DNA from: Corynebacterium jeikeium
Lineage (GTDB): Bacteria > Actinomycetota > Actinomycetes > Mycobacteriales > Mycobacteriaceae
Length of the DNA: 64,000 nt
Assembly (NCBI GenBank): GCA_003955985.1
Contig: CP033784.1
Location: 2,232,001-2,296,000, forward strand
Direction of reading: 5' to 3'
In this document: positions 28,383-39,775 of the stretch, piece by piece
Position numbering within the stretch: position 1 is the stretch's first letter
Layout of the letters: each line of letters opens with the position of its first letter
Made by a program: the position numbers and the translations under genes
The notes under the pieces: generated by a model
Told to the model about the DNA's origin: nothing
The model's input: the letters and a program-made list of their open reading frames with translations, nothing else
Databases searched by the model: none

Positions 28383-28856
28383 GTGAGCGTTGAGGTCACT
28401 ATTGAGATCCCGAAGGGTCAGCGCAACAAGTACGAAGTCGACCACGAGACCGGCAAGGTCTACCTCGACCGCTACCTGTTCACCCCAATGGCCTACCCGG
28501 CCGACTACGGCTTCATCGATGAAACCCTCGGCGAGGATGGCGACCCGTTGGACGCTCTCGTGATCCTGCCGGAGCCGGTTTTCCCGGGCGTTATTGTCAA
28601 GGCTCGTCCGCTCGGCGTTTTCAAGATGACCGACGAGGCCGGCGGCGACGACAAGCTGCTGTGCGTCCTGGATGATGTCCGCTTCGACCACTACCAGGAC
28701 ATCGACGATGTTTCCCAGTTCACCAAGGACGAGATTGAGCACTTCTTCGTCCACTACAAGGACCTGGAGCCGGGCAAGGAAGTTTCCGGTTCGGGCTGGG
28801 GCAACAAGGCTGAGGCTGAGCGCATCCTGGCTGAGGCTATCGAGCGCCACAAGTAA
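28383..28856 (+). CDS. ppa: Inorganic pyrophosphatase
   Basis: Hydrolyses pyrophosphate, driving biosynthetic reactions. The 157-residue soluble enzyme has the metal-binding core [23 protein letters not shown] and the N-terminal [18 protein letters not shown]. The start is GTG 28383 with AAGGAG at 28369-28374, spaced 8 bases. Pyrophosphate is also released by the Pls-type synthetase downstream, but ppa is a housekeeping gene and the proximity need not matter. Confidence 0.97.
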
Positions 28857-28968: not shown

Positions 28969-28996
28969 GTGCTTCCGGCGATAAGGTCAGATTGCG

Positions 28997-29002
28997 TATA
29001 GT
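28997..29002 (+). promoter_or_regulatory. -10 hexamer of a leaderless rhodanese mRNA
   Basis: TATAGT lies seven bases before ATG 29010, with no Shine-Dalgarno site between. The start of transcription is predicted at or within a base of the start codon. Confidence 0.6.
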
Positions 29003-29009
29003 GCGCACT

Positions 29010-29306
29010 ATGGAAACCGTAAACGTATCTGAAGTACCCGAAGACGCACAGATCATTGATGTCCGCTCACAGATGGAGTGGGATGACGGCCACGCCACCG
29101 GCGCCGTTCACATCCCCATGGAAGAGATTCCGTCCCGCTACGGCGAGCTAGATTTGGATTCCGACATTTACCTGATGTGCCGCTCCGGTGGACGCGCCGC
29201 TCAGGTTTCTTCCTGGTTGGAGAAGAACGGTATCGACACCATCGTCATCACCGGCGGCATGATCGACTGGGAGCACTTCGGCCGCCCAATGGAGAAAGCC
29301 AACTAA
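29010..29306 (+). CDS. Single-domain rhodanese-like sulfurtransferase
   Basis: A 98-residue rhodanese domain. The active-site loop MCRSGGRAAQ has the catalytic Cys followed by the usual five-residue loop, and the IIDVRSQMEWDDGHATGAVHIP entry motif is present. The upstream in-frame start at 28992 is rejected because ATG 29010 is spaced seven bases from TATAGT, giving a leaderless mRNA. The protein is probably cytoplasmic, moving sulfane sulfur or acting in redox sensing; the partner is unknown. It lies between two terminators, so it is a monocistronic unit. Confidence 0.9.
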   Translation: METVNVSEVPEDAQIIDVRSQMEWDDGHATGAVHIPMEEIPSRYGELDLDSDIYLMCRSGGRAAQVSSWLEKNGIDTIVITGGMIDWEHFGRPMEKAN

Positions 29307-29314
29307 ATCAACTA

Positions 29315-29346
29315 CAACTGCCCTGCCTACCTGCAGGGCAGTTTTT
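29315..29346 (+). terminator. Intrinsic terminator of the rhodanese gene
   Basis: The perfect stem ACTGCCCTGC / GCAGGGCAGT with a six-base loop is followed by TTTTCATTT. Confidence 0.9.
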
Positions 29347-29450
29347 CATTTATTTACCCACCCCAAAGCACCGACCTTCTAACAATCCGCAGGCAAACAT
29401 GGGCATTATTAGTTGGCCATGTCCCATTATTGATGGTTCCCCAGATTGTC

Positions 29451-29456
29451 TAGTAT
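29451..29456 (+). promoter_or_regulatory. -10 hexamer of the marR-pls transcript
   Basis: TAGTAT lies seven bases before ATG 29464. A possible -35, TTGATG, is at 29430-29435 with a short 15-base spacer. The GGGAAG next to the ATG is too close to act as a ribosome-binding site, so the mRNA is probably leaderless. Confidence 0.5.
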
Positions 29457-29463
29457 GGGAAGT

Positions 29464-30282
29464 ATGTCTGATTCATCCGTACTTTCCTCGGCGGACTCAG
29501 CCGACACCAGCGGTGGTGTGGCAGCCGACGTAGACGCGAAGGTGCCTGCTGTCGACGCACAGAGCGGCACCAAGGCGAAGAAGGCTCGCAAGGGAGCGAA
29601 AGCCAAAAACAAGGCCAGCGCTAAGTCCAAGTGCAAGCCCGGCTCCGCAAGCGAACTCGCCGTCGCACCGGCCGCCCTGCGCAAATCCGCGTCCTGGTGC
29701 CTGGCGCAGCTCGATGCGGCTGTCCGCGCCAGTGTCAACGCGGCTCTTGGCCGCACTCAGATTGAGTCGATTTCCATCCGCGGTTATTGGGTTCTGGAGG
29801 CCATCGCCGATGGCGGCGACATGGCTCAAACCGAGCTGAGCGCGCTGCTCGGCATGGACCGCTCTGACATGGTTCGCCTGATTGACTCTCTGGAGTCGGC
29901 AAATCTAGTCGAACGCACCCGAGACTCCAAGGATCGACGCCGCCAGCTCATCGCGCTGACAGAAACGGGCAACACCACCCGCGCATCTCTGCGACGCTCA
30001 CTCCGCAGAGCCGAACGCGCCGCCGTCGCCGAATGCGCACCCGAGGTACGCGCGCTGCTTGCATCGCTTGCCGACGACTCCGCTGCAAGCCCCGAAACCG
30101 ATGCCGGCGCGAAGAACCCCGAGGCCGCTATCCCAGAGGTCACGGCCACTGAGACAGACACCAAGGACATGGCGGAGAATAAGACGCAGGCGACGTCGTC
30201 AAGCGATGCCCCGCGTCCTAAACGTAAGAAGTCGAAGAAGAAAAAGCGCAAGAAGAAGAATAAGAAGGGGGCTCTCAAGTGA
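29464..30282 (+). CDS. MarR-type regulator with lysine-rich N-terminal segment and C-terminal tail
   Basis: The start ATG 29464 follows the seven-base rule after TAGTAT; the frame opens at 29446. The product is 272 residues. A Ser/Ala-rich start leads into a basic stretch (KAKKARKGAKAKNKASAKSK). A winged-helix domain of MarR type follows (GYWVLEAIADGGDMAQTELS, LLGMDRSDMVRLIDSLESANLVERT, DSKDRRRQLIALTETG). Then comes an acidic Ala/Glu/Thr region and a tail with 12 Lys in the last 20 residues, ending GALK. The stop TGA overlaps the GTG of the synthetase gene, so the two are translationally coupled. It probably regulates its own operon. The tail could bind nucleic acid, or its lysine codons could make downstream translation depend on charged tRNA-Lys (hypothesis). 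Confidence 0.85.
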   Translation: MSDSSVLSSADSADTSGGVAADVDAKVPAVDAQSGTKAKKARKGAKAKNKASAKSKCKPGSASELAVAPAALRKSASWCLAQLDAAVRASVNAALGRTQIESISIRGYWVLEAIADGGDMAQTELSALLGMDRSDMVRLIDSLESANLVERTRDSKDRRRQLIALTETGNTTRASLRRSLRRAERAAVAECAPEVRALLASLADDSAASPETDAGAKNPEAAIPEVTATETDTKDMAENKTQATSSSDAPRPKRKKSKKKKRKKKNKKGALK

Positions 30283-33200
30283 CAACCACTGAAGCGAAGT
30301 TCCTACGTGCTACGGAACAGCCGCTTGAGCGCACACTCATTGACATTGTCCGGGCGACCGCGCGAAGGTTCCCTGAGGCTGAGGCCATCGATGACGGCGA
30401 GGTTGTCGTCACGTATGCGGAATTAATCAACGAGATTGATTCCACAGCTACGTGGCTCTACGAACAGGGCATCCGTCGCGGCGACCGCATTGGTGTGCGG
30501 ATGCCGTCGGGAAGCCGCGAGCTCTACCTGGCAATTTTGTCCATCATGGCTGCCGGTGCCGCCTACGTTCCGGTGGATGCGGACGACCCCGACGAGCGTG
30601 CCGAAATGGTCTTCGGCGAGGCCGGTATCGCTGGTTACTTCGATGCTGAAGGCCTACATTTGGCTGGCTCTACGGCGCGTAATCGCCCCCGCCCGCTGGA
30701 CTTCGACGCCGACTCCGACGAGGAAGCGACGGAACCGACGCCGCCGAACGCACGCGAGATCATCTCGCAGGAGCCCACTCCTGACGATGACTGCTGGATT
30801 ATTTTCACCTCTGGCTCCACCGGCAAGCCCAAGGGCGTGGCGGTCACCCACCGCAGCGCCGCCGCTTTTGTCGATGCGGAGGCCCGCTGGTTCTTGGCCA
30901 ACCACCCGGAAGGGCCGCTCGGCCCGGACGACCGCGTTCTCGCCGGACTGTCCGTCGCCTTCGACGCCTCCTGTGAGGAAATGTGGCTGGCCTGGCGAAA
31001 TGGCGCCTGCCTGGTGCCGGCCCCACGTTCGCTGGTGCGCTCCGGTGTAGACCTGGGCCCATGGCTGATTTCCCGCCACATCACGGCCGTTTCCACGGTC
31101 CCAACACTGGCCGGCCTGTGGCCCGCTGAAGCACTCGACAGCGTGCGCCTACTCATCGTCGGTGGCGAAGCCTGCCCGCAAGAGCTGGTCGAGCGCCTGT
31201 CCACCCCTGAGCGCGAGATGTGGAACACCTACGGCCCCACCGAGGCCACCGTCGTGGCCTCCGGCATCGAGCTGAAGCCTGGCAAGCCCGTGACCATTGG
31301 TTTTCCTCTGGACGGCTGGGACCTCACCGTTATCGACGAGGAGGGCAACCCCGTCCCACCGGGCACGAAGGGTGAGCTAGTCATCGGCGGTGTGGGACTC
31401 GCGCGCTACTTGGATCCGGAGAAGGACGCCGAGAAGTACGCGCCGCTGCCAGCCCTGGGCTGGGAGCGCGCGTACCGCACCGGCGACCACGTCATCATGG
31501 ATGAGGGCGGACTGTACTTCACCGGCCGCGTCGACGATCAGGTGAAAATCGGCGGGCGCCGTATTGAGCTCGGCGAGGTCGAGGCGCACCTGGCTGCCCT
31601 CCCCGGCGCTACTCAGGCGACTGTCGTGGTGCAGAAGACCGGTGCTGGCGACTCCATCCTGGTCGGCTACGTCGGCGCCGGTGGCGACGCCGCAGCCATG
31701 GACTACGACAAGTGCATGGACACCCTCCGCGATGCCATGCCAGCCGCGATGGTGCCACGCCTGCACATCATGGATGAGCTGCCGGTTCGCACCTCCGGCA
31801 AGGTCGACAAGGCGGCGTTGCCGTGGCCACTGCCTGCACGTGCGGGTGAGGGCGACGTCGACAAGCTGAGCCCTGTGGAGAAATGGCTGTCCGATATCTG
31901 GGCCGACGTGCTGTCCGTACCTGCGCCCGGCGCAGCCTCGGACTTCTTCGCCCTGGGCGGCACGTCGCTGGCGGCGGCGAGCGTCATCGCGCGCATTCGT
32001 CAGCGCGCCCCACAGGTCGCCGTGCGCGATCTCTACGACCACCCACGCCTGGGAAACCTCGCCGAGGAATTGGTCGCTCGCGGTTTCATCAGCGACGACA
32101 TGCTTGCCGACGCGCCAGACCCCACCGCTCACCTGGAAAAGGTGCCCGAGCCGACGCCTGTCTCCCGCAAGACCCGTTGGGCGCAGGTCGGCCTCATGGT
32201 GCCTCTGCAGTGGGCACGTGGCATGCGCTGGGTAACGTGGCTTGCGATTATCAACTGGGTTATCGGCGGACCGCTGGCGCTACCAGGCTGGTTGGTGGCC
32301 GTACTGGCCGTGCTGTTCCTGACCCCGCTGGGGGTCATGCCCATCAACGCGGCGACGACACGCCTGCTCACGCGCAACATCACCGCGGGTGATTACCCGC
32401 GTGGCGGTTCGGTACACCTGCGGCTATGGGCGGCCGAACGCCTGGCGGAGAGCTCTGGCGCCCACTCTGTGGCGGGCGCTCCGTTCGTGCTGTGGTATGC
32501 CCGCATGCTGGGTGCCCGCATTGGTAAGGGCGTGAATCTGCACGCGCTGCCGCCGGTGACGGGTCTGGTCAAACTGGATGATTACTGCTCGATCGAGCCG
32601 GAGGTAGACCTGTCCGGATACTGGGTCGATGGTGATGTCGTCCACGTCGGCGAGGTCACTATTGGCAAGCACGCCCGCATCGGTGCCCGTTCCACGCTGC
32701 TGCCCGGCGCGCGTATCGGCAATGACGCTCACATCGAGGCGGGTTCCACCGTCACCGGTGAAAAGAAGGTCAAGGCTGGTGCGCGCTGGTCGGGTTCCCC
32801 GGCTCGCAAGGTCGGCCGGTCCAAGCACCGCTTCCCGGAGGAAGTCCCGCCGGCGCGTCGCCACTGGGTGGCTATCTACGGTCTTACTGCTGTGTTACTG
32901 ACGCTGGTGCCGCTGTCCGCTGCGGTCGCGATGGCTGCTGTCATCGGTTGGGGCACGGGGCTTATCGACGGCACCACCGAGCTAACCACCTCGAATCTCT
33001 GGCCAACGCTGGGTAGCGCCGTGCTGTGGGCTATTCCCGCCACCTTCGTCGGTGTTGCGGTGTATGCCCTGCTGACGCTGATTCTCGTGCGCCTGTTCAG
33101 CATCGGCCTGAAGCCGGGAGTGTTCCCGGTGCGTTCGCGCGTGGGTTGGCAGTCGTGGGCGACAATTCGCCTGATGGACGCTGCCCGTCACGACCTATTT

Positions 33201-34322
33201 TTCATCTACGCCTCCATGTTGACGCCGCTGTGGCTGCGTGCACTGGGCGCCCAAATTGGTCACGACAGCGAAGTCTCCACCGCGATCGGTATTCCGAAGT
33301 TCTTGCACGTCAAGGACGAGTCCTTCTTGGCTGACGACACCATGGTCGGCAGCTACGAGCTCGGCGGCGGTTGGCTGCTGGTGGGTGACTCCCGCATCGG
33401 CAAGCGCGCCTTCCTGGGCAACTCCGGCATCACGCTTCCAGAACGCAAGCTGGCGAAGAACTCGCTGGTGGCCGTGCTGTCCTCTACCCCGAAGAAGACC
33501 AAGTCCGGCTCCAACTGGTGGGGTTCGCCGCCAGAGCGCATGCGCCGCGTGGGCACCGTCTCCAGCGATGAGTCGGCGCAGACCTACCGTCCGACTACGG
33601 GATTGAAGGTCGCCCGCGGCATCGTCGAGACACTGCGCGTCCTGGCACCGATGGTCTCTCTCATGTTGGCTACGGTCACGCTGTTTATCTTGCAGGCCCT
33701 TGGCATGTTCACCGCGGAGTTGGTCACTGCAGGTGGCGTTGGCGCTGCCCTGCTCGGCCTGCTGGTCGCGTGGCTGCTCTCCCCTGCCGTGCTACTGATT
33801 GTTGGTGTGCTGGGGCTGCTCATCACGGTCGTGGCCAAGTGGGTGTGCGTCGGCAAGCACAAGCCCGGTGATCACCCACTGTGGAGCAAGTTCGTCTGGC
33901 TCAATGAGCTGCAGGATGCATTCGTCGAAATGGTTGCCGCACCGTGGTACCTGAACCCGGCGATGGCCACCGGCGGTATCGCACGCGCGATGCGTCTGCT
34001 CGGCGCGAACGTTGGCCACGGGGTGTGGCTGGAGACGTACTGGCTGCCCGAGACCGACCTTGTCAAAATCGAGCGGGGCGCTTCTGTCGGCCGTGGTTGT
34101 GTCGTTCAGACGCACCTGTTCACCGACCGCGTGATGACGCTCGACACCGTCCACATCGGACACGGCTCCGTGCTGGGACCGCACTCAGTCGCACTGCCGG
34201 CATCTGTGCTTGACGACGGCTGCCGCGTCGAACCCGGTTCTCTCGTCATGCGCGGTGACCATGTTCCTGCGCACACCTCCTGGCGAGGTAACCCAATTGA
34301 GCCAGTGGTGGCCAAGAAGTAG
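30279..34322 (+). CDS. Pls/PosA-type nonribosomal poly-amino-acid synthetase
   Basis: A 1347-residue membrane synthetase with the layout of epsilon-poly-L-lysine synthetase (Pls). The adenylation domain, residues about 1-515, has A3 IFTSGSTGKPKGVAVTH (175-191), NTYGPTEATV (316-325), YRTGDH (399-404), GRVDDQVKIGGRRIELGEVE (416-435) and SGKVDK (506-511). The carrier domain has DFFALGGTSL with the phosphopantetheine Ser at 563. Six transmembrane helices in three pairs (about 648-690, 861-940 and 1120-1188) separate three soluble hexapeptide/left-handed beta-helix domains (about 695-855, 945-1110 and 1190-1347). The binding-pocket code by alignment to GrsA is D229 A230 E233 T273 I293 G295 T317 V325 V326 K508, similar to lysine codes I recall. 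The product is probably a basic homopolymer, but this is inference. The start GTG 30279 overlaps the regulator stop. Confidence 0.93.
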   Translation: MTTTEAKFLRATEQPLERTLIDIVRATARRFPEAEAIDDGEVVVTYAELINEIDSTATWLYEQGIRRGDRIGVRMPSGSRELYLAILSIMAAGAAYVPVDADDPDERAEMVFGEAGIAGYFDAEGLHLAGSTARNRPRPLDFDADSDEEATEPTPPNAREIISQEPTPDDDCWIIFTSGSTGKPKGVAVTHRSAAAFVDAEARWFLANHPEGPLGPDDRVLAGLSVAFDASCEEMWLAWRNGACLVPAPRSLVRSGVDLGPWLISRHITAVSTVPTLAGLWPAEALDSVRLLIVGGEACPQELVERLSTPEREMWNTYGPTEATVVASGIELKPGKPVTIGFPLDGWDLTVIDEEGNPVPPGTKGELVIGGVGLARYLDPEKDAEKYAPLPALGWERAYRTGDHVIMDEGGLYFTGRVDDQVKIGGRRIELGEVEAHLAALPGATQATVVVQKTGAGDSILVGYVGAGGDAAAMDYDKCMDTLRDAMPAAMVPRLHIMDELPVRTSGKVDKAALPWPLPARAGEGDVDKLSPVEKWLSDIWADVLSVPAPGAASDFFALGGTSLAAASVIARIRQRAPQVAVRDLYDHPRLGNLAEELVARGFISDDMLADAPDPTAHLEKVPEPTPVSRKTRWAQVGLMVPLQWARGMRWVTWLAIINWVIGGPLALPGWLVAVLAVLFLTPLGVMPINAATTRLLTRNITAGDYPRGGSVHLRLWAAERLAESSGAHSVAGAPFVLWYARMLGARIGKGVNLHALPPVTGLVKLDDYCSIEPEVDLSGYWVDGDVVHVGEVTIGKHARIGARSTLLPGARIGNDAHIEAGSTVTGEKKVKAGARWSGSPARKVGRSKHRFPEEVPPARRHWVAIYGLTAVLLTLVPLSAAVAMAAVIGWGTGLIDGTTELTTSNLWPTLGSAVLWAIPATFVGVAVYALLTLILVRLFSIGLKPGVFPVRSRVGWQSWATIRLMDAARHDLFFIYASMLTPLWLRALGAQIGHDSEVSTAIGIPKFLHVKDESFLADDTMVGSYELGGGWLLVGDSRIGKRAFLGNSGITLPERKLAKNSLVAVLSSTPKKTKSGSNWWGSPPERMRRVGTVSSDESAQTYRPTTGLKVARGIVETLRVLAPMVSLMLATVTLFILQALGMFTAELVTAGGVGAALLGLLVAWLLSPAVLLIVGVLGLLITVVAKWVCVGKHKPGDHPLWSKFVWLNELQDAFVEMVAAPWYLNPAMATGGIARAMRLLGANVGHGVWLETYWLPETDLVKIERGASVGRGCVVQTHLFTDRVMTLDTVHIGHGSVLGPHSVALPASVLDDGCRVEPGSLVMRGDHVPAHTSWRGNPIEPVVAKK

Positions 34323-34607: not shown

Positions 34608-36917
34608 TTACTCTGCTAGCTGCAACCGAGCCTGCTGAGCTGCGGCTACCAATACTTTCAGTGAAGCCGTAACCTCTTCCCAACCTCGGGTCTTTAGACC
34701 ACAGTCCGGATTAATCCACAGCAGGTTGGGGTCAACGCTTTCAAGCGCATCTTCCACGAGCTGGTTGACTTCTCCGTCCGTCGGCACGCGAGGCGAGTGG
34801 ATGTCCCAGACACCTGGACCAATCCCGCGAACGTATCCCTCATCTTTCAGCGCTGCGAGCACCTGCATACCGTTGCGAGCTGCTTCGATGGACGTGACAT
34901 CGGCGTTGAGCTCATCGACGGTGTCAATGAGCTCATTGAAGTCCGAGTAGCACATATGCGTGTGAATCTGAATGTCGTCAGTCACGCCAGAGGTAGCCAG
35001 GCGGAAGGACCCCACAGCCCACTTCAGGTAGGCGGGCTGGTCCGCTTCATTCAGGGGCAACAACTCGCGAATGGCAGGCTCGTCGACCTGTACGATCTGC
35101 GCTCCAGCGGCCACGAGATCTGCAATCTCATCGCGCAAAACCAGCGCAACATTATCCGCAGTGTCACCGATTGGCTGGTCATCACGGACAAACGACCATG
35201 CCAACATAGTCACTGGCCCGGTGAGCATTCCCTTGACGGGAAGGTCAGTCATGTCTGCCGCTGCCTTGTACCACTGCACCGTCATCGGCTCTGGCCTGGT
35301 GATATCACCGTAGAGAATCGGCGGCCGCACGCAGCGGGAACCATAGCTTTGGACCCAGCCATTGGTGGTGGCAAGGTAGCCGTCCAGCTGCTCCGAGAAG
35401 TACTGCACCATGTCGTTGCGCTCAGGTTCACCGTGAACCAGCACATCGAGCCCCAGTTCTTCCTGCTGTTCAATGGCAGATCGAATTTCAGCGAGCATTG
35501 CCGACTCGTAGTCAGCTGGGGTCAGCTCTCCCGTGCGCAGCTGCGCACGTGCACGACGAATACTATTGGTCTGCGGGAAGGAACCGATTGTGGTGGTCGG
35601 CAGCGGAGGCAGGTTAAGGGCCTCAGCCTGAGCCGCCTGGCGAGCTGCAAACGGGGAACGAGTCCGGTCGCTGGCCTCGATTGCCGCCAAAGCTTCACGA
35701 ACTTCAGGCTTAACAATCCGCTTCGACTCTGCCCTCGATGCCAGTGCGGCCCGGGACTCACTCAACGCCTTCAAATCCGCGGCATCGAGTTGGTGGTCAT
35801 TCAACCTGGCATCAAGCGCTCTCGCCAAGAGGGTCACCTCGGCGATTTTCTCATCCCCGAAGGCCAGCCACTGCAGCACCTCGGCATCCTCTTCGCTCGG
35901 GTCTTCCGCTGTCAGGGAATACGGCACGTGTAGCAGCGAACAGCTAGTCGACACCGCGATGGGGCCTCGGGCTGCCAGCTTCTCCAGCGTCGCCAGAGCT
36001 GCATCCAAGTCGGTGCGCCACACATTACGACCATCGACAATGCCCGCAACCAGCAGTTCCTTGCCAGTCCAATGCGGCAACTCGGAGCTACCTGCTACCA
36101 GGTCGCAACCAATGGCCTGCACGCCTGTGCCAGAAAGGGTTTCCAGCGCCTGATCACCATCACCAAAGTAGGTCTGCACCCACAACTTGGTATTCGCAGA
36201 CTCCGCCACGTCGGCCAACTTCTCGTAGACCTGGCGAGTCCTAGCAAGAGTCACTTCATCGAGGTCAGTGACCAATACTGGCTCATCGAGCTGAATCCAC
36301 TCAAAGCCCTTATCCCCCAGTTGAGCGATGATTTCCGCGTACGCATCGGTCAACTTTTCCAGCAGGCCGAGTGGGTTCGAACCATCGTCGGTACGCGACA
36401 GGCTCAAGTAGGTCACAGGACCAATCAAATGAGGGCGCAGCATCGTTGTGGCGCCATTGTTCAAGCTGCAGGAATCATCCAACCAGTCAGTGAGGTCAGA
36501 GGTAAATTCAGTATCGGCTGACAGCTCCGGAACGATGTAGTGGTAATTAGTGTCGAACCACTTGGTCATTGCGGATGCCGGTTGCGTCTTCGTACCGCGA
36601 GCGGTGGCGAAGTAGTGGTTGATCCATTCCGGCAGGTTGGAACCGTCCGTTTTCGGGACATCCTGAAAGCGAGCTGGAAGCACTCCGAGCAGCGCCGATG
36701 TATCCAGCATGGAGTCGTAGAACGAGCGCCCAATTGTCGGAACCGAGTCGATTCCTACCTTCAACGCTGCGCCAATGTAGCTATTGACAGTGTTGCGCGC
36801 CGTCGCGGCCAACAGGCCGCCGGTCGCCGGGTCGCGCCAGTAGTTTTCCAGAGCTTTTTTGAGCTCACGATTACGCCCTATCCGCGGAATGCCCGCGAGG
36901 GTTGCGTGAATTGCCAT
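34608..36917 (-). CDS. metE: Cobalamin-independent methionine synthase
   Basis: Methylates homocysteine from methyltetrahydrofolate-polyglutamate, with zinc. The 769-residue protein has the duplicated barrel typical of MetE. The zinc ligands appear in IHTHMCYSDF (His, Cys), with Glu in the preceding strand, and in NPDCGLKTRGW (Cys near the C-terminus). The substrate-binding LPTTTIGSFPQTNSIRRAR is present. The start is ATG 36917 with GAGGAA upstream. A cobalamin riboswitch immediately upstream should repress it when vitamin B12 is available, which implies the host also has MetH. Confidence 0.97.
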   Translation of the reverse strand: MAIHATLAGIPRIGRNRELKKALENYWRDPATGGLLAATARNTVNSYIGAALKVGIDSVPTIGRSFYDSMLDTSALLGVLPARFQDVPKTDGSNLPEWINHYFATARGTKTQPASAMTKWFDTNYHYIVPELSADTEFTSDLTDWLDDSCSLNNGATTMLRPHLIGPVTYLSLSRTDDGSNPLGLLEKLTDAYAEIIAQLGDKGFEWIQLDEPVLVTDLDEVTLARTRQVYEKLADVAESANTKLWVQTYFGDGDQALETLSGTGVQAIGCDLVAGSSELPHWTGKELLVAGIVDGRNVWRTDLDAALATLEKLAARGPIAVSTSCSLLHVPYSLTAEDPSEEDAEVLQWLAFGDEKIAEVTLLARALDARLNDHQLDAADLKALSESRAALASRAESKRIVKPEVREALAAIEASDRTRSPFAARQAAQAEALNLPPLPTTTIGSFPQTNSIRRARAQLRTGELTPADYESAMLAEIRSAIEQQEELGLDVLVHGEPERNDMVQYFSEQLDGYLATTNGWVQSYGSRCVRPPILYGDITRPEPMTVQWYKAAADMTDLPVKGMLTGPVTMLAWSFVRDDQPIGDTADNVALVLRDEIADLVAAGAQIVQVDEPAIRELLPLNEADQPAYLKWAVGSFRLATSGVTDDIQIHTHMCYSDFNELIDTVDELNADVTSIEAARNGMQVLAALKDEGYVRGIGPGVWDIHSPRVPTDGEVNQLVEDALESVDPNLLWINPDCGLKTRGWEEVTASLKVLVAAAQQARLQLAE

Positions 36918-36964
36918 GATCTCGTGATTTCCTCGTCAGTCGTGATCAGCATCGGATATGAAAT

Positions 36965-37130
36965 TGCACAACCGGCAGGCATTCGGACTTGTCATCACTG
37001 CAAGATTGGTTATCAACTCGTCGGATAAACCAAAGCTCTGGCAGTGATGCTTACCGTTGCGGGACAGTTCCGGACTTGCACCGGGATTCCCCTGCATAAC
37101 TCGAGGGCCTCATGCGCGCTAGGCTCAAAA
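36965..37130 (-). promoter_or_regulatory. Cobalamin riboswitch upstream of metE
   Basis: On the minus strand the leader contains the conserved core GGGAATCCCGGTGCAAGTCC, then CCCGCAACGGTAAG, and the B12 box AAGTCCGAATGCCTGCCGG (36974-36992) in the usual order and spacing. It lies 50 bases upstream of the metE start. The exact 5' end is estimated. The expression platform is probably within 36918-36970. Confidence 0.92.
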
Positions 37131-37345
37131 CACACCTTGCGCGGAAAACGTGCGATATGCAGCACTTTCCTTTATGAACACCTTCGAGGCGGCTGTGGAT
37201 GTGAAGTATATCGCAATATACAAATATGTCATTCACTTAGCCCCTCCCCGAGCCTTCGCTTTAGTGCTCTCCTGCTGGGGCCAATGCGATTAAGCTCGTA
37301 GTCATAAAAGCTATTCATTCCACCGCTTTCAAGGAGTGACCTCGA

Positions 37346-38467
37346 TTGACACAGGCTTCCGAAACTTCCCTGAGGGGCGCCAAGATTCCGTTCGATGGCC
37401 CGGTCCAGTCAGGCGTTGAACAGCCCGGCCAAGCACATCTCCGCCTCGTCGCATTCGATTTGAAGGACGGCGTCGACGCAGCAGATCTGAAGGCACTGTT
37501 CTCCTCGCTTACCGACGTTGCCCGCCGCCTCACCCAAGGCCAGGACATCGAGGGGTATCTGGAACCGGAAATGGTTGCAGCCACTGCAAACCTGACCATT
37601 ACCGCAGGTTTCGGTGAGCGCATCTTCGATGTGCTCGGCAAGCCAGAGCGCAAGCCGGCTGGTCTGCACGATATCCCGTCATTCCAGCATGACATGCTCC
37701 GCCCTGAGTGGGGCCAGTCTGACTTCGCTCTGCAGTTGTGCGGTGATGATCTCGTCACCGTTTCGGCCGCGTCCCGTCTACTGGAAAAGAAGGCGGCTCC
37801 GTGGGCTCGCGTGAAGTGGTTCCAGAAGGGCTTTTCCTACGCCTGGGGTTCGCAGCCTCACGGCGCTACCCCACGCAACCCGCTGGGTCAGCTCGACGGC
37901 ACCGTCAACCCGTCCACTCCGGAGGAATGGTCCGAACAGGTGTGGATTGACTCCAAGGACAAGGCGATTAACAACTCCTGCGTGATGGTTGTTCGCCGTA
38001 TTGCCCTCGACTTGAACAATTGGGATGAGCTCAGCACCGACGAACGCTCCATCGTTATCGGTCGTGACTTCCACACCGGCGCTCCTCTTTCCGGCGGCAA
38101 TGACGAGTTCGATGAAGAGGACATGGACGCCGTCGATGACCAGGGCGAGTATCTCATCCACCGCCAGTCTCACTTGGCGCTTTCCCGTGAGCAGGATGGT
38201 CAGCCTGACGACGCCCTGCGTCGCCGCGCCTATGCCTACGAAGACCAGCCCGGTGAGCCGGCCTTCCCGTTCGAAGGACCGAACGTTGGCCTGGTCTGGG
38301 TTGCATTCCAGAAGAACCCGGACAACCAGTTCAGCGCAATCCAGGCCCGTTTGGATCGCGGCGATTTGCTCAATGAGTGGAACCGTCACATCGGCTCCGC
38401 TGTGTATTGGATCGCCCCTGGCACTACCCCAGATTCCTACTGGGGTCAGGAGTTGATTGAGGGGTAG
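37346..38467 (+). CDS. Dyp-type peroxidase without export signal
   Basis: A 373-residue heme peroxidase of the dye-decolorizing family. The motif GQLDG (in NPLGQLDGTVNPST) matches GxxDG with the catalytic Asp, and the heme-ligand His is probably in LIHRQSHLAL. The start is TTG 37346, with AAGGAG 9 bases upstream and an in-frame TGA at 37337, so the protein cannot begin earlier. The N-terminus (MTQASETSLRGAKIPFDGPV) starts right at the mature domain; the Tat signal of EfeB/exported Dyp proteins is missing and no efeU/efeO is adjacent. It is probably cytoplasmic. Confidence 0.92.
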   Translation: MTQASETSLRGAKIPFDGPVQSGVEQPGQAHLRLVAFDLKDGVDAADLKALFSSLTDVARRLTQGQDIEGYLEPEMVAATANLTITAGFGERIFDVLGKPERKPAGLHDIPSFQHDMLRPEWGQSDFALQLCGDDLVTVSAASRLLEKKAAPWARVKWFQKGFSYAWGSQPHGATPRNPLGQLDGTVNPSTPEEWSEQVWIDSKDKAINNSCVMVVRRIALDLNNWDELSTDERSIVIGRDFHTGAPLSGGNDEFDEEDMDAVDDQGEYLIHRQSHLALSREQDGQPDDALRRRAYAYEDQPGEPAFPFEGPNVGLVWVAFQKNPDNQFSAIQARLDRGDLLNEWNRHIGSAVYWIAPGTTPDSYWGQELIEG

Positions 38468-38734: not shown

Positions 38735-39634
38735 TTAGTCACCAATCTGGTCGCGGCCACGCTTAACAATCTTCGGATCCGGAGTACCGACCAGCTCGTG
38801 GTCCTTCTCCGTGTACTCGAACTTGCTCAGCACATAACGCATCGCGTTGATGCGGGCACGCTTCTTGTCGTTGGACTTAATGGTAATCCACGGGGACTCA
38901 TCGGTATCCGTGTAACGGAACTGCTCTTCCTTCGCGCGGGTGTAGTCACCCCAACGGTCCAGCGATGCGAGGTCCATCGGAGAGAGCTTCCACTGACGTA
39001 CCGGGTCGACCTGGCGAATAGCGAAGCGAGTGCGCTGCTCCTTCTGGGTCACCGAGAACCACAGCTTGGTCAGCGAAATACCGGAGCCCAGAATCATGTT
39101 CTCCAGCATCGGAACCTCACGCAGGAACTCTGCATGCTGAGACTCAGTACAGAAACCCATCACGCGCTCAACGCCCGAACGGTTGTACCAAGAACGGTCG
39201 AAGAAGACGATTTCGCCAGCGCACGGAAAATGCTCAATATAGCGCTGGAAGTACCACGAGGTGGACTCACGCGGCGACGGCTTTTCCAGAGCCACAGTTC
39301 GAGCACCACGCGGATTCAGGTGCTCGTTAAAGCGCTTAATGGTACCGCCCTTACCAGCGGCGTCACGGCCTTCGAAGAGGATGATGTGCTTCTGACCAGT
39401 TTCCTTGGTCCAGTTCTGCCACTTCAGAAGCTCAATCTGCAGCTTCCTCTTAATAGACTCATATTCCTTGCGCGTCATGCGCTCCTCGTACGGGTAGCCA
39501 TCGCGCCAAGTGTCAACCCGCTCACCGTCTGGAGTGACCAGTACCGGATCGTCCTCATCAGAATCATCGACGACGTAGCCTTCGGTCTTCGCCAAATCGA
39601 CGATGTGGAATTCCTCTTCATTCTTGTCAGCCAT
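38735..39634 (-). CDS. ppk2: Polyphosphate kinase 2
   Basis: PPK2 enzymes transfer phosphate between polyphosphate and nucleotides. ATG 39634 (MADKNEEEF) is preferred; the frame extends to 39664. The product is 299 residues, the size of a one-domain PPK2. Walker A is LFEGRDAAGKGGTIKR, Walker B is VFFDRSWYNRSGVE, and the lid-type PRESTSWYFQRYIEHFP is present. An acidic N-terminal segment precedes the kinase fold. It is transcribed alone and ends at its own terminator. With the phosphatases it may belong to phosphate storage. Confidence 0.94.
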   Translation of the reverse strand: MADKNEEEFHIVDLAKTEGYVVDDSDEDDPVLVTPDGERVDTWRDGYPYEERMTRKEYESIKRKLQIELLKWQNWTKETGQKHIILFEGRDAAGKGGTIKRFNEHLNPRGARTVALEKPSPRESTSWYFQRYIEHFPCAGEIVFFDRSWYNRSGVERVMGFCTESQHAEFLREVPMLENMILGSGISLTKLWFSVTQKEQRTRFAIRQVDPVRQWKLSPMDLASLDRWGDYTRAKEEQFRYTDTDESPWITIKSNDKKRARINAMRYVLSKFEYTEKDHELVGTPDPKIVKRGRDQIGD

Positions 39635-39775
39635 ACCCCTTATCCTACTGAATTTCTCTGCCACGCGTCCCCCATGCGGGTGCCCTTACCTGCAATTTCC
39701 CAGCAGTTAACGTTCCGTCTTACCGAAATTGAGGGGGTGGGACTGCACGCAGCGACCGTCGATAAGCACTGCGCG

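Follow-up and report, generated by a model that had tools for sequence, protein, structure and literature searches.

A probable epsilon-poly-L-lysine synthetase gene paired with a MarR-type gene at an old Corynebacterium locus

The window analyzed here, a whole stretch of 64,000 nucleotides from Corynebacterium jeikeium (contig CP033784.1, positions 2,232,001 to 2,296,000), contains a gene of the Pls/PosA family, pls, which to judge from its sequence very probably (at roughly 0.88) encodes an epsilon-poly-L-lysine synthetase. A complete domain set, a lysine pocket, an intact frame, the pairing with a marR-like gene and the synteny of the locus are read directly from the sequence; lysine as the substrate, the polymer and its export are those expected from the family. 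In such an enzyme the adenylation (A) domain would activate L-lysine with ATP and the carrier would bind it in thioester linkage. The terminal domain, embedded in the membrane, would then join successive lysines through the carboxylate of each and the side-chain amine of the following one, and the resulting polycation, dozens of residues long, would leave the cell. Pls is already a known kind of protein in Corynebacterium, and the window gene is a further member: of 12 cheese and skin isolates of Corynebacterium, 10 were reported to carry a Pls (PMC8117764), and 182 of the 242 Corynebacterium genomes searched pass the curated cut-off of the family profile TIGR02353. The useful addition of the present analysis is the pairing of a MarR-type gene with pls across the genus. 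The gene is intact, its probable product is a polycation with broad antimicrobial action, and it sits at an old locus that is widespread in Corynebacterium.

The pls gene encodes a full-length Pls-type synthetase

The open reading frame (ORF) picked out by the initial annotation is present as an uninterrupted frame with a GTG start and 1347 codons for amino acids (Table 1), and its identification as a Pls-type synthetase is upheld by the match to TIGR02353, which scores 718.5 bits against the curated NCBIfam cut-off of 423.1 and covers positions 3-695 of the 695 in the profile. At such scores chance is excluded as an explanation of the matches. The layout that the annotation had proposed, namely an A domain, a carrier, six helices and three beta-helix domains, agrees with both the Pfam matches and the hydropathy profile, except that one helix is merged with its neighbor and the middle beta-helix part is not seen by Pfam. 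Hexapep repeats are found by Pfam at residues 793-827, in the first part of the terminal domain, and a beta-helix match at residues 1268-1327, in the third part, lies under the Pfam cut-off; the middle part has no Pfam match. Three hydrophobic regions stand out in the hydropathy plot, at residues 655-693, 863-949 and 1115-1193; five peaks in them are distinct, and the helix at about 655-676, which would be the sixth, is fused with the neighboring peak. Read in light of the family, this plot fits six helices in three pairs that separate three tandem parts. A further hydrophobic stretch at residues 81-100 was considered as a membrane helix and discounted, as it is marginal and lies within the soluble A domain. 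Neither a condensation nor a thioesterase domain is among the five Pfam families that match the protein at E <= 0.001. Elsewhere in the genome there are two matches to PF01648, the phosphopantetheinyl-transferase family.

The substrate pocket is that of a lysine enzyme

The ten residues lining the predicted substrate pocket are D229, A230, E233, T276, I293, G295, T317, V325, V326 and K508, the last of which lies downstream of the PF00501 core; the sites were located via GrsA motifs rather than by an alignment to GrsA. The resulting code, DAETIGTVVK, is the one that had been read by hand in the initial annotation. The nearest solved structure by sequence is 7wew, which is named epsilon-poly-L-lysine synthase (E 1.8e-175) and which we take to come from Streptomyces albulus. 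Its alignment to the window A domain spans residues 9-125 and 153-520 and has the same letter at all ten pocket sites. The annotation had compared the code with lysine-type codes of the form D-A-E-S-I-G-S-V-x-K, from which it differs at two or three sites; the reading of the pocket as lysine-like stands, and the choice of reference does not, Pls being the right comparison. As the code equals that of a Pls at 10 of 10 sites, rather than resembling a nonribosomal peptide synthetase lysine code, the case for a lysine pocket is stronger than was claimed.

The same pocket prevails among the relatives of the window protein. We fetched 110 of these, namely the best 80 named loci and the best-scoring 30 further Corynebacterium proteins, and in the 108 with a readable code (all but L072 and L077) DAETIGTVVK occurs 102 times, DAESIGTVVK five times and DAEAIGTVVK once. 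The window code accounts for 72 of the 78 readable named loci and for all 30 of the further Corynebacterium proteins. In the Pls/PosA family, lysine enzymes are described as having alanine at the second pocket site, the ornithine enzyme PosA methionine (code DMEHNGTVSK), and the diaminopropionate and diaminobutyrate enzymes phenylalanine, while the code of the beta-lysine enzyme is DGESISVVNK (PMC10522769). With Ala230 at the second site, the window protein departs from the phenylalanine rule for diaminobutyrate and diaminopropionate synthetases, and its code differs from those of PosA and the beta-lysine synthetase.

These comparisons bear on the possibility that the window enzyme makes another cationic homopolymer, such as poly-ornithine, poly-diaminobutyrate, poly-diaminopropionate or poly-beta-lysine. 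Such polymers are indeed made by the same family with a like terminal domain (PMC10522769); however, the identity of the pocket to Pls at all ten sites, against the different codes of PosA and the beta-lysine enzyme, makes this very improbable. In the same direction, the C. variabile enzyme (that protein, not the one in the window) has 51% identity to Pls as against 31-33% to three other synthetases (PMC8117764).

Two observations weigh against the assignment as an epsilon-poly-L-lysine synthetase. In C. variabile and Streptomyces a peptidase gene lies beside pls (PMC8117764), but no peptidase gene adjoins the window pls, which is followed by metE on the opposite strand; a neighboring peptidase that degrades epsilon-poly-L-lysine (PldII) belongs to the gene context and does not define a Pls. 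Likewise, no peptidase was found downstream of pls among nine proteins from the eight named Corynebacterium loci, a partial test that used mechanical ORFs; the matches among them are to PPK2 (polyphosphate kinase 2), phosphoesterases and acetyltransferases. Two M1-family peptidase genes do occur elsewhere in the genome. The other observation is that the polymer went undetected both from C. variabile itself and from C. glutamicum carrying its gene (PMC8117764). Nevertheless, when expressed in S. coelicolor the C. variabile Pls yields epsilon-poly-L-lysine of 26-35 residues (PMC8117764). Since C. variabile gave no detectable polymer and yet its gene works in S. coelicolor, a wild type without detectable polymer is compatible with the assignment of the window gene as a Pls.

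A MarR-type gene lies directly upstream of pls across the genus

Directly 5' of pls and co-oriented with it lies a marR-like gene, the stop codon of which overlaps the pls start in a GTGA tetranucleotide (Table 1); the mechanical ORF begins further upstream, at TTG 29446, and has 278 amino acids. Its product is matched by PF12802 (45 bits) and PF01047 (38.7 bits), both above cut-off. Structure prediction, which used a 14-row alignment with one row (L122:1500-2100:-) placed by guessed coordinates, gave a mean predicted local distance difference test (pLDDT) score of 68, with a well-predicted winged-helix core at about residues 70-207 of 272 and low-confidence tails at the N- and C-termini. In a Foldseek search the predicted core matches MexR (best E 4.1e-07), CouR, SlyA and Rv0880. 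Named homologues are from Corynebacterium sp. HMSC077G07 (98%), Corynebacterium sp. HMSC063G05 (97%) and C. amycolatum (90-95%), in keeping with the Corynebacterium label that the initial annotation had given to the DNA. By these homologues the window belongs to C. amycolatum or a close relative of it.

To gauge the spread of the pairing across the genus, a sample of 75 regions was drawn from the 182 genomes, consisting of every second of about 150 best-scoring Pls rows (74 genomes) and the window's own region; the lowest-scoring Pls genomes fall outside this sample, and the spacing tally used the MarR core only as query. A MarR-family gene lies directly upstream of pls on the same strand in 73 of the 75, and in 62 of these 73 it lies no further than 60 bp from the projected start of pls. 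The two remaining regions, L197 and L206, have no MarR match, though rhodanese and ppa matches are present. Beyond this sample, with the window MarR as a single query, at least 13 of 80 named loci of many genera have a plus-strand MarR match; in 12 of these the match is at most 184 bp from where pls is projected to start, and in the other it is 3.7 kb away. Six of the 13, including the distant one, are in the eight Corynebacterium loci and seven are elsewhere, mostly in Nocardia. Based on its position, the adjoining MarR-type protein is the likeliest candidate for a local regulator of pls. No mention of a MarR-pls pairing was found in searches of listings of open-licence PMC papers; the word MarR is absent from the main text of PMC8117764, and the covered text of one Streptomyces paper with a MarR gene makes no link from it to pls.

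A lysine-rich tail at the marR-pls junction

The last 20 codons of the window marR, KRKKSKKKKRKKKNKKGALK, include 13 for lysine, and a candidate pls ribosome-binding site lies within them (Table 1). Across the whole genome the strict lysine-run pattern AARNNNAARAARAARAAR has a single match, at this junction, and a reversed control also has one; the looser pattern AARAARNNNAARAARAAR has six matches at five places, against one for its control. One of these five is in a putative second PPK2 (recognized by eye; L221, C1:1976038-1976055 of the same genome, minus strand), which ends in KSDKKGKKHKKGKKDKKSKKK. Six of the 73 sampled MarR genes encode eight or more lysines within their final 40 residues. 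Every one of the six has a potential pls start at the -4 overlap, compared with 3 of the 67 others. When nine more tailed loci were picked and added, the -4 overlap was found in 14 of 15 rows and 13 of 14 genomes (G006 being counted twice); in L122, L123, L124 and L126 another start is nearer to the projected pls start than the overlapping one. No lysine-rich tail was seen upstream of pls in the 78 named loci examined, which do not cover L072 and L077.

The link of tail and overlap was considered as a repeated association (Fisher p 4.9e-07, 73 rows) and set aside after trees had been made. Two changes suffice to account for the tailed genes on trees of either the Pls N-terminus or the MarR core, and a single clade of tailed genes is not rejected on the Pls tree (p-AU 0.455), leaving one or two independent comparisons. 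From this placement, tail and overlap may go back jointly to one origin. The order of residues in the tail was likewise tried and dropped as a conserved motif: mean identity between the two sub-clades is 0.54 (20 pairs) versus 0.49 for shuffled tails, 32.5% of which reach the mean identity, and only the composition is kept. In the same comparison the winged-helix core has an identity of 0.49 and the linker of 0.28. Ten tails contain 12 arginine codons, 11 of them CGN rather than AGR, and hence a purine-rich ribosome-binding site is not by itself an account of the stretch.

One way to read this junction is that marR serves as a gauge of lysine: ribosomes translating it would cross 13 lysine codons over the pls ribosome-binding site before restarting at the GTG. 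In its favor, the window couples a run of lysine codons to a biosynthetic gene by the GTGA overlap, the overlap accompanies the tails regularly in the sampled and extended sets, and the only genomic match of AARNNNAARAARAARAAR is at the junction. Nevertheless, we consider it improbable. The reversed control of AARNNNAARAARAARAAR matches as often, and the five places of AARAARNNNAARAARAAR indicate that such runs are rare rather than unique; the tails may be counted as a single clade; their order is hardly above what composition gives; and lysine also abounds in the N-terminal tail of the window MarR, where it could not act as a gauge. Moreover, three genomes with no pls over the cut-off (G183, G182 and G009) have a syntenic MarR with 12-13 lysines in the last 40 residues, and a fourth pls-less genome, G111, has one with seven. 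These tails consist of spaced K-S-G repeats without runs, on a core of the untailed type; hence the MarR family grows lysine-rich tails without pls, although it does not follow that the run itself persists in the absence of pls. The corollary of such a gauge, that pls is translated only with an ample supply of charged Lys-tRNA, is accordingly just as doubtful. It is equally a slim prospect that in this one Corynebacterium clade marR doubles as a lysine gauge or, alternatively, that its polybasic nascent tail paces pls translation from within the ribosome exit tunnel.

A simpler reading, and one that we regard as reasonably probable, is that the lysine-rich tails of MarR are an ordinary polybasic extension for binding DNA or another polyanion, unrelated to the product of pls; it competes with the gauge and not with the assignment of Pls. 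Neither terminal tail has a predicted structure and model confidence is low in both, the prevalence of CGN arginine codons suggests that charge rather than purine content is kept, and the genome has other proteins with lysine runs. The lysine-rich tails of genomes without pls point the same way. What a polybasic extension leaves unexplained is why the sole AARNNNAARAARAARAAR match adjoins the gene for a poly-lysine maker.

The surrounding locus

The order ppa - rhodanese - marR - pls - ppk2 is that of an old Corynebacterium locus (Table 1). Upstream of pls, about 2.4 kb were sampled in each of 74 regions, of which 67 have a rhodanese match and 29 extend to a ppa match, and ppk2 is within the flanks of pls in 7 of the 8 named Corynebacterium loci. 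The flanking ppa and ppk2 could serve the turnover of ATP and pyrophosphate during polymer synthesis or could reflect plain synteny; the two genes stay together also where pls is absent. A gene for a Dyp-type peroxidase (37346-38467, plus strand) lies between metE and ppk2 in the window.

The loci of the pls-less genomes G183, G182 and G009 (L229, L230 and L231) keep ppa - rhodanese - marR - ppk2 without pls. The presence of marR there suggests either that pls was lost or that the regulator has a second role. In another genome without TIGR02353 over the cut-off (L233, G202:C1:1293500-1298500), marR is followed by an ORF that matches the Pls N-terminus (E 3e-19) and may represent a relative of Pls that lacks the usual terminal domain.

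As for signals upstream of marR, a search for an operator identified none, and a promoter scan gave no site on the plus strand before the gene; TAGTAT at 29451-29456 is a candidate picked out by eye, and an imperfect inverted repeat lies at 29397-29422. The scan for terminator-like sites returned four, two of them nested at 29316..29343, versus 3.3 expected.

Table 1. Coordinates of features at the pls locus (window numbering)
Feature	Position	Strand	Evidence or remarks
ppa, inorganic pyrophosphatase	28383..28856	+	syntenic neighbor
Rhodanese-like protein	28992..29306	+	syntenic neighbor
Terminator-like 11-bp stem with T-run, between rhodanese gene and marR-pls	29316..29343	+	
marR-like gene, directly 5' of pls, co-oriented	29464..30282	+	ATG, 272 aa; PF12802, PF01047, fold
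Last 20 codons of marR, 13 Lys, 2 Arg	30220..30279	+	
AAGGGGG, Shine-Dalgarno-like, candidate pls ribosome-binding site	30265..30271	+	within lysine codons, 7 nt before GTG; by eye
GTGA overlap (pls GTG 30279-30281, marR TGA 30280-30282)	30279..30282	+	4 bp
pls, probable epsilon-poly-L-lysine synthetase (Pls/PosA family)	30279..34322	+	Pfam, NCBIfam, 7wew alignment
Adenylation core PF00501, residues 25-376	30351..31406	+	Pfam; carries nine of ten pocket residues
Carrier (thiolation) domain PF00550, residues 536-597	31884..32069	+	Pfam; LGGTS motif at residue 559
Pls/PosA terminal domain TIGR02353, residues 636-1340	32184..34298	+	NCBIfam, Hexapep, hydropathy
metE, B12-independent methionine synthase	34608-36917	-	next gene downstream of pls
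Cobalamin riboswitch, before metE	36957-37154	-	Rfam RF00174, 40.5 bits
ppk2, polyphosphate kinase 2	38735..39664	-	syntenic neighbor

Comparison with known systems

Among characterized enzymes, PosA, the delta-poly-L-ornithine synthetase of Acinetobacter baumannii, belongs to the same TIGR02353 family as the window Pls (PMC10522769); its pocket, DMEHNGTVSK, is that of an ornithine enzyme, in contrast to the lysine-type DAETIGTVVK of the window. The enzyme of structure 7wew shares the entire A-domain pocket with the window Pls, but comes from another genus and gene context, pls in Streptomyces having pldII beside it (PMC8117764). With respect to the regulator, MexR, CouR, SlyA and Rv0880 are MarR-family proteins with a winged-helix core like that of the window protein, which differs from them in its long lysine-rich N- and C-terminal extensions of low model confidence. 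The closest parallel is the Pls of C. variabile DSM 44702, which is like the window Pls in genus and architecture, and the pockets of coryneform Pls proteins are described as identical or highly similar to those of confirmed Pls (PMC8117764). In contrast to C. variabile DSM 44702, the window pls is without an adjoining peptidase gene, and a MarR-type gene overlaps its start. An unknown trigger has been invoked for production of the polymer in C. variabile (PMC8117764), and the marR that adjoins pls across the genus is a testable candidate for the switch behind it.

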